64,000 nt of DNA from Levilactobacillus senmaizukei DSM 21775 = NBRC 103853 (GTDB taxonomy: Bacteria; Bacillota; Bacilli; Lactobacillales; Lactobacillaceae). The stretch lies in the NCBI RefSeq assembly GCF_001592085.1, contig NZ_BCWD01000003.1, forward strand, positions 62,001 to 126,000. Reading direction: 5' to 3'. Below the pieces are notes generated by a model. The model was not told the origin of the DNA. It ran no database searches and was given only the letters and a program-made list of their open reading frames with translations. This document shows positions 30,719 to 33,763 of the stretch, piece by piece. The position numbers were made by a program, and so were the translations under genes. The first letter of the stretch is position 1. Each line of letters opens with the position of its first letter.

Positions 30719-30746
30719 TTGCATTTATACTCATTATTGGTAAAAT
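30719..30746 (+). promoter_or_regulatory. tRNA-Ser promoter
   Basis: TTGCAT, 16 bases, TAAAAT, with an extended TGn (TGG) before the -10. It ends 16 bases before the tRNA. Confidence 0.65.
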
Positions 30747-30762
30747 ATATTAGTAGTTACTT

Positions 30763-30850
30763 GGAGAGTTGGCAGAGTGGTAATGCAACGGACTCGAAAT
30801 CCGTCGAACCGGCTAATACCGGCGCGCAGGTTCAAATCCTGTACTCTCCT
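30763..30850 (+). tRNA. tRNA-Ser(CGA)
   Basis: A complete class II tRNA fold. The acceptor stem is GGAGAGT/ACTCTCC. The anticodon stem ACGGA/TCCGT holds the loop CTCGAAA with anticodon CGA at 30795-30797. A long variable arm (CCGGCTAATACCGG) and a T arm with TTCAAAT follow. CCA is not encoded, so 3' maturation needs RNase Z and a CCA-adding enzyme. The discriminator base after the stem is T, not the G usual for serine tRNAs. Confidence 0.95.
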
Positions 30851-30951
30851 TCAAGTAGTTATTCATATCGCTGTAAGACGCCGCTAACCGTTGGATTTAC
30901 GGCGTTTTTGTTTGTCTTAAGGCGGATTAGAACGAGATAAAACGAGAACTT

Positions 30952-31092
30952 GGTGCACTTTTCGGTGCACTTTTACAAAAAGTGCACCGAATTTGCTTTT
31001 TTCGAAAAAATAAAGTGCACCATTTAGGTACTGAAATCAATCGTAATCCCTTTAGTACCATGCGATCTGACGAGTGCACCAAATGCACTTTT
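30952..31092. repeat. Cluster of GTGCAC-type repeats between the tRNA and the integrase tail
   Basis: GGTGCACTTTT occurs at 30952-30962 and 30964-30974. The inverted form AAAAGTGCACC is at 30978-30988 and AAAGTGCACC at 31012-31021. GTGCACC (31074-31080) and TGCACTTTT (31084-31092) close the cluster. Copies two and three form a perfect 11-base stem with a 3-base loop. Position and layout fit arm-type integrase binding sites. Confidence 0.8.
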
Positions 31093-31175
31093 TAGTTGAT
31101 GTTTTCGAGTGCTTTCAGAGTCAAAGCCTCCTCTTGTTGCTGGTCTTCTTGCATCAAATGAGCGTATACATTATT
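31092..31175 (-). pseudogene. C-terminal remnant of a tyrosine-type integrase
   Basis: The minus strand has a 27-codon open tail reading NNVYAHLMQEDQQQEE and on to ALENIN before its stop at 31092. VYAHLMQ matches the segment around the catalytic tyrosine near the end of phage integrases (typically TxxxYAHL). A stop codon lies directly upstream (31176-31178), so the rest of the gene is gone. Its stop faces the tRNA, the usual order in tRNA-integrated prophages (tRNA, att core, arm sites, int reading towards att). The call rests on a short match. Confidence 0.6.
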
Positions 31176-31285
31176 TTAATTCACCTAGGCGGGTAGAATT
31201 GTGGATTAAGGTTGTGGCAACACCTCCTTTAAGTTAATATTGAATATGTAAAAAGGGTTCACTAATCCTTTGGATCTTATATGAT
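31176..31285. other. Non-coding stretch of the accessory segment, unexplained
   Basis: No frame longer than about 20 codons with a start signal is seen. On the minus strand an AAAGGAGGTG ribosome-binding-like sequence (31225-31234) is followed by a TTG codon and a stop after four codons. Nothing recognisable is encoded. Confidence 0.4.
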
Positions 31286-31328
31286 GCGCATCTCCACTGT
31301 CTTGGCGGGTAGGGGGATGCGCTTTTTT
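31286..31328 (+). terminator. Terminator-like hairpin in the accessory segment
   Basis: GCGCATCTCC (31286-31295) pairs with GGGGATGCGC (31313-31322), one G-U, followed by six T. No plus-strand gene lies upstream except the tRNA, so it may end a small RNA or tRNA read-through. Confidence 0.7.
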
Positions 31329-31411
31329 ATTTTCATAATTAAATACCTATGGTCTAGCATCAGTGGTGTACCGGCGTTCATTTATTTTACGAATTAAAAA
31401 CGAGTACAGAA

Positions 31412-31996
31412 TTAATTAGATTCACTTAAATCGGTTTTAGATTTTGTTACTAGTTTGTCATTCATAAAGGAGAAAGAAACAGATTTTGTTCCTTGAACGT
31501 AAGAGAGATCTTGGGCGTTCATTGAACCTATCTTAGAAATAGATTCGCCTTCGGGTGTTCCAAGCTGCTTTTTTACATCCTTAACGGTAGTGCCAGTTTG
31601 AACGGCCTTATATTTTGCATCGCTTATCTTGTGACTGATTGAAGCTGAGACGTAACCTTTTCCGACAGCGACACCATCAATAAAGTCGACGTTAACCGTA
31701 GCACCCTTCAAAGAAGACGCGACTTTGTTCCAAGAGTATTGGGTTGCTTTCTTAGTGGCCCCGGGTACTTCGGTCTCAGTCTCGATGGTTGCCTTACCAA
31801 ACATCTTTTTAACTTGTTTTTTGGTGGTTCCATTGTCGCCAAGCTTGACTGAATTATATTGAGATAACGTCACACCAATCTCTTTCTTGCTACTAGAGTT
31901 ACTAGAAGTCTTGGATGAGCTTGATGTGTCACTTGAGCAGGCAGCTAGGGACAAGCTGGCTAAAAGGGTAATACCAATGGTAAGAATACGTTTCAT
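31412..31996 (-). CDS. DUF3862-type lipoprotein
   Basis: A 194-residue exported lipoprotein. The signal peptide is MKRILTIGITLLASLSL with lipobox LAAC (Cys20), then a Ser-rich linker. The mature part has two related beta-lactamase-inhibitor-like (BLIP/SmpA) units: VKLGDNGTTKKQVKKMFG, and VQTGTTVKDVKKQLGTPEG, each an alpha-turn-alpha start followed by strands. This matches the DUF3862 class often seen in the lysogeny modules of lactobacillar prophages. AAGGAGG precedes the ATG. Its base composition is AT-richer than the core genes around it. It lies 69 bases behind the SAP-domain gene in the same direction. Confidence 0.8.
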   Translation of the reverse strand: MKRILTIGITLLASLSLAACSSDTSSSSKTSSNSSSKKEIGVTLSQYNSVKLGDNGTTKKQVKKMFGKATIETETEVPGATKKATQYSWNKVASSLKGATVNVDFIDGVAVGKGYVSASISHKISDAKYKAVQTGTTVKDVKKQLGTPEGESISKIGSMNAQDLSYVQGTKSVSFSFMNDKLVTKSKTDLSESN

Positions 31997-32065
31997 GATA
32001 TTGCCTCCTTATTGGGAGTTATGTATTTGCAGCTTTTAATGCCTTCAGCAGTATTGGGCGGGCAT

Positions 32066-33013
32066 TTATGATTTGGATGAAGCGATAAGTTCATTGACAC
32101 GGTCTAGTCTTTTAGTGAAGTCCTTGCGTGCAACCCCAGGATTGCGCTTAGTTCGCTCGATTCCGATTTCTAAGATTCTAGCTTCATCCTCGAGACGTTG
32201 CTGCTTTCTGTAGAGCATAGCCAAAGTGTGAAAGATAACGGGATACCAATTACCCTCCTGTATGGCGCGTAAACCAAGTGATTCAACTTGGTTTAATTTT
32301 TTTTGGCTCCAAAGCCCCGATAAAGTCTGACCTTGACGGAAGAAGTAATCTTCTGTGAATGTAGCTTTATCTACTCGAGTTGAATTAATATGTTTCGCTA
32401 GCAGCGATTCCTTAGTTGTGGTTAGAGCATTAGCTACATTGATTATGCCGTCTTTTGAATTATTTTTATGTGCCCATACTAAATAGCTGTATTTTTCTAA
32501 AAGACTGTTACCAGTTGGCGTACATATGAGAGACCGGTTCACAAAAGAAGTAGAGTACGAACTTTCGCCGATATTGTCAGTGATACGCTGAATTAAGTCA
32601 GGTTTCTTTCCTGATACTTTTTGGTTGTTCTCCCGAAGGATATCTTTAAGTTCAGGTACTCTTAAAGATTTTAGTGATTCAGAAGGTGAGGCAACTGTTA
32701 GGTAGCCCAGTCTGATAAGGTTATGCCTGTCTTTGGCCGCATTGAGTCCGTATTCGTATTTAAAGTAGGCGGGTATACTGGCAGTTTCGCTTTTATGGTT
32801 AGCCCAATCCAAAAGAATAACTTCGCCAGGTAACAATCCTTCCTCAAGGGGGGGCATTAATCGCTTGTCTGGTACGTTTGTTTGGTTATTGTGTGGCTGC
32901 GCATCATTATGTTTGGGGCGGTTGATCGACGAATGTTCAGGGCTATTATTAGCATTAGATACTTCTCGGACGGGATCGAAAATTTGTTTTCGTATCCATG
33001 AAAAAATACTCAT
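32066..33013 (-). CDS. SAP-domain-containing protein of unknown function
   Basis: A 315-residue soluble protein. Residues 20-60 are a low-complexity Asn/His/Pro linker. Residues 114-148 form a SAP motif (LRVPELKDILRENN, then VSGKKPDLIQRI), a helix-turn-helix fold known to bind DNA or RNA. Residues 240-312 are helical and TPR-like (YPVIFHTLAMLYRKQQRLED). The middle part is not recognised. A weak ribosome binding site (AGTAGGCG) lies before the ATG. AT-rich, with codon use unlike the neighbouring core genes; probably prophage- or island-derived. SAP proteins of this kind occur near prophage integrases, but its job is unknown. Confidence 0.75.
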   Translation of the reverse strand: MSIFSWIRKQIFDPVREVSNANNSPEHSSINRPKHNDAQPHNNQTNVPDKRLMPPLEEGLLPGEVILLDWANHKSETASIPAYFKYEYGLNAAKDRHNLIRLGYLTVASPSESLKSLRVPELKDILRENNQKVSGKKPDLIQRITDNIGESSYSTSFVNRSLICTPTGNSLLEKYSYLVWAHKNNSKDGIINVANALTTTKESLLAKHINSTRVDKATFTEDYFFRQGQTLSGLWSQKKLNQVESLGLRAIQEGNWYPVIFHTLAMLYRKQQRLEDEARILEIGIERTKRNPGVARKDFTKRLDRVNELIASSKS

Positions 33014-33301: not shown

Positions 33302-33763
33302 TTATTTCTTCCCAGCACTCTTTTCATGAGCGGCAACTGCTAATTCAGGGAACCAGATGGCAATTTCATGGTGGGCGTTTTCACGGCTATCTGACGTGTG
33401 GACCACGTTACGGAGAACACCGTCAGGGTAGGAGTGGGCGTAGTCGCCCCGAATCGTCCCTGGTTGCGCATCGTTTGGCCGTGTCTTGCCGGCTAGGTTA
33501 TGAACCGCCTTGACGATGTCAGTCCCAGTGGCGATGATGGCCACCAGTGGACCTTCTTGCATGTACGTTTCAATTTCGTGGAAAAATGGTTTGTCGACTT
33601 GGTCAATGTAGTGCTTCTTCAATTGCTCGGAAGTCGCGTTAACCACCTTGAGCGCGGTAATCTGATAATTTTTACGTTCCAAACGGCTGATGATATCGCC
33701 AATGTGTCCCTCAGCGACCCCGTCCGGTTTGACTAACAGTAACGTTTTTTCAGAATTTGCCAT
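33302..33763 (-). CDS. ndk: Nucleoside diphosphate kinase
   Basis: A 153-residue enzyme that balances nucleoside triphosphates by transferring the gamma-phosphate from ATP through a phosphohistidine. The ATP-binding KPDGVAEGHIGDII start, RPNDAQPGTIRGDY and the catalytic His in NVVHTSDS are present. The residue after the catalytic His is Thr where many enzymes have Gly, which is seen in other lactobacilli. GGGGG precedes the ATG. It is monocistronic. It marks the return to core chromosome after the accessory segment. Confidence 0.97.
   Translation of the reverse strand: MANSEKTLLLVKPDGVAEGHIGDIISRLERKNYQITALKVVNATSEQLKKHYIDQVDKPFFHEIETYMQEGPLVAIIATGTDIVKAVHNLAGKTRPNDAQPGTIRGDYAHSYPDGVLRNVVHTSDSRENAHHEIAIWFPELAVAAHEKSAGKK

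Follow-up and report, generated by a model that had tools for sequence, protein, structure and literature searches.

Related phages and organization of the locus

Lactobacillus phage mv4 integrates at the 3′ end of a tRNA-Ser gene, and it is this choice of site that likens it to the locus considered here. The phages with the most similar integrase outside the genus are those with integrase WP_196241630 or WP_013355651, namely the circular records NZ_AP028154 (L. plantarum) and NZ_CP015341 (L. brevis) and 37 IMG/VR loci, the latter encoding relatives of the L. plantarum integrase (78–99%). Their order is integrase, arm, core, P′ arm. The core, CTGTACTCTCCTT, starts 83 bases past the integrase stop codon in eight of the eight phage loci that extend that far (L037, L038 and all six of the 37 IMG/VR loci that are long enough) and the same eight carry GTGCAC sites at +5 and +16. 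Beyond the core, L037, L038 and L180 continue with a P′ arm, which has a terminator and a further three sites. In L170, L182, L195 and L197 the core is followed by other DNA, and L176 stops just past it. This other DNA can be read as that of the host, which would place the integrase at the end of the lysogen far from the tRNA.

The locus lies in the window, by which we mean the whole 64-kb stretch of DNA analysed, part of contig C3 of a 2.21-Mb genome in 74 contigs (G000). The sole tRNA gene of the window is tRNA-Ser(CGA) (Table 1), and a search of three loci with Rfam found nothing besides the tRNA. Bases 30740–30851 are matched in all 35 genomes of the genus sample, which comprises the window's own genome and 34 others, with a single such match in each. 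Among named loci the closest ndk genes are from Levilactobacillus, the top one being that of L. tangyuanensis (97%). Approximately 2.4 kb of AT-rich DNA, containing two intact genes, separates the side of the integrase tail from ndk. In a profile of 28–36 kb the G+C content per counting window is 37–43% over 30.75–33.25 kb as opposed to 44–56% elsewhere, which bears out the preliminary description of an AT-rich segment after tRNA-Ser.

Table 1. Features at the tRNA-Ser(CGA) locus, with positions in the window
Feature	Position	Strand	Evidence
tRNA-Ser(CGA), intact, integration target	30763–30850	+	ARAGORN
13-bp att core CTGTACTCTCCTT, common to the tRNA 3′ end and phage attachment sites	30839–30851	+	Phage-locus alignment
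Core-adjacent phage arm (P′) with arm-type sites and a terminator-like hairpin at ~30878–30909 (by eye)	30852–31010	+	Alignment scores
Arm-type repeats GGTGCACTTTT	30952–31021	30952, 30964 (+); 30978, 31011 (−)	Motif search
Integrase-side arm, directly abutting the P′ arm without an intervening core	31011–31091	−	Alignment scores
Tyrosine integrase end: last 26 codons and stop, plus one junction codon	31092–31175	−	Homology to G005 and phage integrases
DNA lying just upstream of the integrase start in relatives	31175–31340	−	Matches G005 1420–1595
Intact ORF, DUF3862 lipoprotein, lysogeny-module position	31412–31996	−	Pfam DUF3862 2.5e-9; phrog_6148 ('moron' family) 2e-20
Intact ORF, SAP-domain protein, lysogeny-module position	32066–33013	−	Pfam SAP 4.4e-10
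ndk, first core gene on the right	33302–33763	−	Pfam NDK 6.9e-48

We are highly confident that 30851–33013 represents the tRNA-side stump of a temperate phage with a tyrosine integrase, which would have entered the tRNA-Ser(CGA) gene at the 13-bp core in its 3′ end, a reading drawn from sequence comparison. Integrase homology is found at the tRNA, the core is shared with phage attachment sites, and in relatives the element is absent or more complete. The full integrase, repressor and structural genes of an intact prophage are not seen in the window, nor does its 64 kb hold a second copy of the core, the right end, at up to 3 mismatches in 19; such a copy marks an intact element, not a remnant. 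The observation made in the preliminary description is thus confirmed and its interpretation, supported by these data, is right in essence: this is an ordinary prophage scar.

The integrase tail

The frame NNVYAHLMQEDQQQEEALTLKALENIN*, of 27 codons, runs with its stop towards the tRNA. Seven records of the phage collection match it, the best at 61.5% identity (E 2e-3), the other six at less than 60% with E values of 0.8 or worse. Identity to the integrase of NZ_CP015341, a phage-plasmid, is 61% over 26 residues, and to the integrase at the same tRNA in G005 it is 88% (E 7e-11 within 34 fetched loci). The BLASTP comparison against phage integrases that had been proposed as a check therefore does return an integrase end. 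Searched alone against HMM libraries, the tail matches no family in PHROGs or Pfam.

Comparison with G005 places the junction. Homology is unbroken from upstream of the tRNA to position 31172 of the window (G005 325) and restarts at 31175, which corresponds to G005 1420, just upstream of the start of the G005 integrase (1406). Measured against this one relative, the window integrase lacks residues 1 to about 361, some 1.09 kb, in one gap, with the flanking DNA retained on both sides; the G005 integrase is nearly complete but is itself frameshifted near 465. That the body of the integrase is gone, as first described, holds in this comparison. The tail had also been taken for the last 27 codons of an integrase, and here the identification and the direction of the stop stand, while the count needs a correction in that 26 codons are homologous and the remaining one is a junction codon. 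The segment that follows the tail also matches the 5′ side of the integrase in L037 and in NZ_AP028154, and other integrases of the genus, those of G009, G011 and G022 among them, also have this segment nearby.

The attachment region

The hexamer GTGCAC occurs 13 times in 64 kb, and five of these copies fall within approximately 30940–31095. With up to one mismatch allowed, GGTGCACTTTT has four copies in the window, all of them in the cluster listed in Table 1. Four copies are also attained in 12 of 100 shuffled versions of the full window, so the signal lies in the clustering of the motif and not in its number. The same motif flanks the core on both sides in L037, L038 and L180.

Alignment with the same three loci identifies both arms. 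The P′ region of the window scores 96–99 against their P′ arms, with none of 500 shuffles as high, and even its reverse complement scores 40 (0 of 500), an effect of the inverted-repeat nature of the arm sites. Window 31011–31097 scores 44, 42 and 34 against the reverse-complemented integrase-side arms of L037, L038 and L180 (0 of 500 shuffles as high for each), whereas against the same arms read forward 45, 107 and 89 of 500 shuffles score as high. G005 resembles the window across the arms (score 65, 0 of 500), and its arm matches L037 weakly (score 23; 8 of 500 shuffles as high).

Read from the tRNA, the window has the core, then the P′ arm, then the integrase-side arm and the integrase, both reversed, and the order of the L. 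plantarum and L. brevis phages, with the core between the arms, is not found in it. On the basis of these alignments the block of core and P′ arm is turned relative to the integrase when set against those phage relatives, and in this comparison the attachment region is rearranged. The layout is not odd for the site itself, since in G003 and G023, which have an integrase of another subfamily, the stop is also towards the tRNA. An earlier statement that the order is that seen at attL accordingly fits other integrases at this site but not the closest phages from outside the genus, in which the integrase would lie at the end far from the tRNA.

Two further observations concern phage records. In an unannotated Hujiaoplasma phage record the positions at which tail and core match, worked out by hand, imply the same order and distance as in the eight phage loci. 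In L037, inspection by eye places CACCTAGGCGGGTA upstream of the integrase and again, reversed, beyond the P′ arm, which might have some connection with a rearranged attachment region.

Other occupants of the site

A scan with three query integrases (E up to 1e-3) gives matches at the tRNA in six of the 35 genomes (G000, G003, G005, G023, G029 and G032), all on the 3′ side of the tRNA; several contigs end near the tRNA. The second check proposed in the preliminary description, a comparison of the interval between tRNA-Ser and ndk in relatives, also comes out in its favour. G003 carries an intact integrase at the tRNA and, further on, terminase, portal, major and minor head and tail sheath genes, with a right end beyond the reach of the stretch. 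G005 has the frameshifted integrase. In G007 a 12-kb stump extends from the tRNA as far as a core-like copy at +12212 (2 mismatches in 19); its genes read, from their translations, as terminase, portal, head, holin and lysin. Outside that copy, and before ndk, come a piece resembling a terminator and then genes for a lipoprotein and a SAP protein. G017 has a short interval, with 966 bp from tRNA to ndk. A short segment conserved in all relatives would have spoken against a prophage origin, and DNA similarity extends past the tRNA and its edge in only five of the 34 other genomes (G005, G007, G015, G029 and G031).

G008 (L060/L112) has a copy of the 3′ part of the tRNA gene in the same direction approximately 2.5 kb upstream of the complete tRNA, a trace either of an element or of a tandem copy. 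In G026 (L045) a stretch resembling a truncated tRNA 3′ end is seen by eye near +1500 from the tRNA end, near MFS.

Accessory genes and origin of the segment

Two accessory genes had been described beyond the tail. Both are present and intact, and to this can be added that both occupy the position of a lysogeny module. Relatives of the SAP-domain protein are encoded in four of 50,697 phage records, and in each of the three that were opened (Javan617, TMW 1.46 P2 and TMW 1.1447 P1) a CI-type repressor lies on one side of the gene and the integrase on the other, with further genes intervening in the last two. A prophage in G009 shows the order repressor-like, ImmA-like, a frame resembling the SAP C-terminus, lipoprotein, another frame and integrase, where the first two labels come from a reading of the sequences and not from a search. 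The SAP matches in G022 and G007 cover the N-terminal two thirds of the protein, whereas in G009 and G011 the match is confined to the C-terminal third and does not include the SAP domain; in G009, G011 and G022 a partial SAP relative, the upstream segment and the integrase occur in the order of the window. A search of the phage collection with the lipoprotein gives nothing at 1e-5, and its relatives in two of the 34 other genus genomes lie, to judge by the translations, amid apparently ordinary chromosomal genes.

A history compatible with these features can be proposed. With its tyrosine integrase, a temperate phage would have inserted itself at the core in the 3′ end of the tRNA-Ser(CGA) gene. 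The repressor, the structural genes and the right-hand core would then have been lost by one or more further deletions, so that the remnant would have lost its own mobility. The two accessory genes, whose frames are still open, may be kept for a role in superinfection or regulation.

Could the segment have arisen in another way? It might consist of stacked elements, with the lipoprotein and SAP genes left from an older outer remnant and the core, arms and integrase tail from a younger inner one. The lipoprotein and SAP genes of G007 do lie outside the core-to-core element, and the window's two genes too could therefore stem from an older outer element; in the window, however, the integrase-upstream segment passes into both genes without an intervening core, in the order of the G009 prophage, and we regard stacking as doubtful. 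An integrative element other than a phage, such as a satellite, ICE or island, employing an integrase of the phage type would account for the lack of any recognized structural phage gene in the interval, of which the two large ORFs and the tail were scanned. Such an origin is nevertheless very improbable given that holin and lysozyme genes lie beside the attachment site in two records with related integrases, that the integrase family is encoded on 37 viral-contig loci and that G003 has phage structural genes at the same tRNA. That a chance frame happens to resemble an integrase end beside the tRNA, as the E value of 2e-3 and lack of an HMM match for 27 residues alone might suggest, is virtually inconceivable and is refuted by the DNA homology, which continues past either end of the tail into sequence that flanks integrases.

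As the stump of a prophage, then, the scar is a matter of routine annotation, yet it belongs to a decay series at one tRNA (intact integrase, frameshift, stump and short interval) and shows a phage attachment region ordered differently from that of its relatives.

Direction of the tRNA gene across the genus

The scar is ordinary; what is unusual is the recurrent inversion of the tRNA gene beside it. Among the 35 genomes (orthologues in L040–L073) tRNA-Ser(CGA) faces ndk in 19 and MFS/Apt in 15, with G014 unplaceable. The neighbours are constant in side and strand: ndk in 24/24, MFS in 20/20, Apt in 17/17, GpmB and PspC each in 31/31 and PPK2 in 29/29. The side of each was read in the frame of the tRNA call, and the result is one of mutual consistency among neighbours. 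In eight of the 34 placed genomes the stretch used shows a neighbour on just one side.

On a RecJ tree of the 35 species, which represents one gene near the locus, at least nine changes of direction are required, likewise when only well-supported branches are counted. Randomly dealt labels give 11.4 changes on average, and 52–56 of 500 deals have as few as observed. For the 26 genomes with both sides on one stretch there are 8 changes versus 8.2 at random. In G018 and G019 the flanks are colinear at 95% and approximately 684 bases including the tRNA are reversed at 98.1%; G033 and G001, and other pairs, display the same in-place reversal at greater distance. The window and its nearest relative G026 have opposite tRNA directions. 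The turning is recurrent, local and in place.

The control was tRNA-Lys(CTT), an isolated gene in the window's genome, which keeps its direction relative to the flanks in 33 of 33 other genomes (both flanks in 32, the left only in G004). The query was matched in 34 of the 35 genomes, its own included, G008 being the exception. This control is one tRNA gene, the sole other one found in approximately 334 kb (overlaps included) of the window's genome.

A small TIR-like gene adjoins tRNA-Ser(CGA) in 33 of the 35 genomes, for example at −543 to −148 relative to the tRNA end in L067, and the copy in G018 matches ThsB_TIR at 1.6e-11. It was not found in the window, nor beside the tRNA of G026. In G009 and G025 the tRNA has turned without this gene.

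How the tRNA gene might turn

It is probable that tRNA-Ser(CGA) with its promoter, and usually the TIR-like gene, turns repeatedly between fixed neighbours (at least nine times in 34 species) leaving no inverted repeats, that in complete chromosomes its transcription is thereby placed with or against the replication fork, that the landing side for phages is moved between ndk and MFS/Apt, and that insertion and loss of elements at the tRNA may drive the turns. Positions of dnaA and the dif-like site indicate that a gene facing ndk would run with the fork (G005, G030, G032 and G034) and one facing MFS/Apt against it (G019). Integrase matches lie beside the tRNA in six of the 19 genomes facing ndk and in none of the 15 facing MFS/Apt, where several contigs end early.

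Several routes were considered. Site-specific inversion at inverted repeats is not supported: the two ends of a genome's own segment resemble each other no more than ends taken from different genomes (mean score 18.7 versus 19.7, with two of 32 above the 95th percentile), and no inverted repeats were found at the G018/G019 breakpoints; any such reaction would have used short repeats or repeats since lost. Inversion at the replication terminus is rejected. Each of the six genomes searched has a single dif-like site, ACTTTCGATAATATATATTATGTAAAGT or one base off (G000, at C27:13924–13951, and five complete chromosomes), and in the five complete chromosomes the locus is 168–220 kb from it (calculated by hand from the coordinates), on one replichore. 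Against inversion by integrase between cores, no convincing inverted core copy is present in the stretches of the 35 genomes, where extra copies amount to three direct ones (G007, G008 and G031) and one reversed with 3 mismatches (G003), the expectation being 0.2 in all per shuffled core. Differential loss of two old inverted tRNA copies is disfavoured by the one full tRNA match per genome; a tree of 33 TIR-like sequences, 32 of which have a direction, also counts against it, with nine changes of direction, seven of them forced by well-supported branches. Replacement by transfer is disfavoured in G018/G019, with the inverted segment at 98.1% and the flanks at 95%.

The likeliest route may be that breaks are repaired where DNA is repeatedly inserted and deleted, with selection keeping only those turns that would move promoter and tRNA together. 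Among the titles and abstract openings listed by literature searches, none describes the tRNA inversion or the integration site. As a natural experiment, recurrent inversion would show how small inversions can come about in the absence of repeats, whether a tRNA gene can be transcribed head-on to the replication fork without harm, and by what means a hotspot of integration switches from one side to the other.

Comparison with known systems

The phages with integrase WP_196241630 or WP_013355651 share with the window the integrase family, the 13-bp core, the flanking GTGCAC sites and the integrase-upstream segment. They differ in that the window has its order reversed at arm and integrase, with no core between the arms, and is without the integrase body, the right end and the body of the phage. 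The element in G005 is like that of the window in locus, direction, arms and integrase end (88%). Unlike the window, G005 has an almost complete, frameshifted integrase, no match to the lipoprotein or SAP gene, and 6.6 kb to ndk with ORFs that read as transposases. The G003 prophage also lies beside tRNA-Ser(CGA) with its integrase stop towards the tRNA, but its integrase is of another subfamily (34% to that of NZ_CP015341) and the structural phage genes are present.
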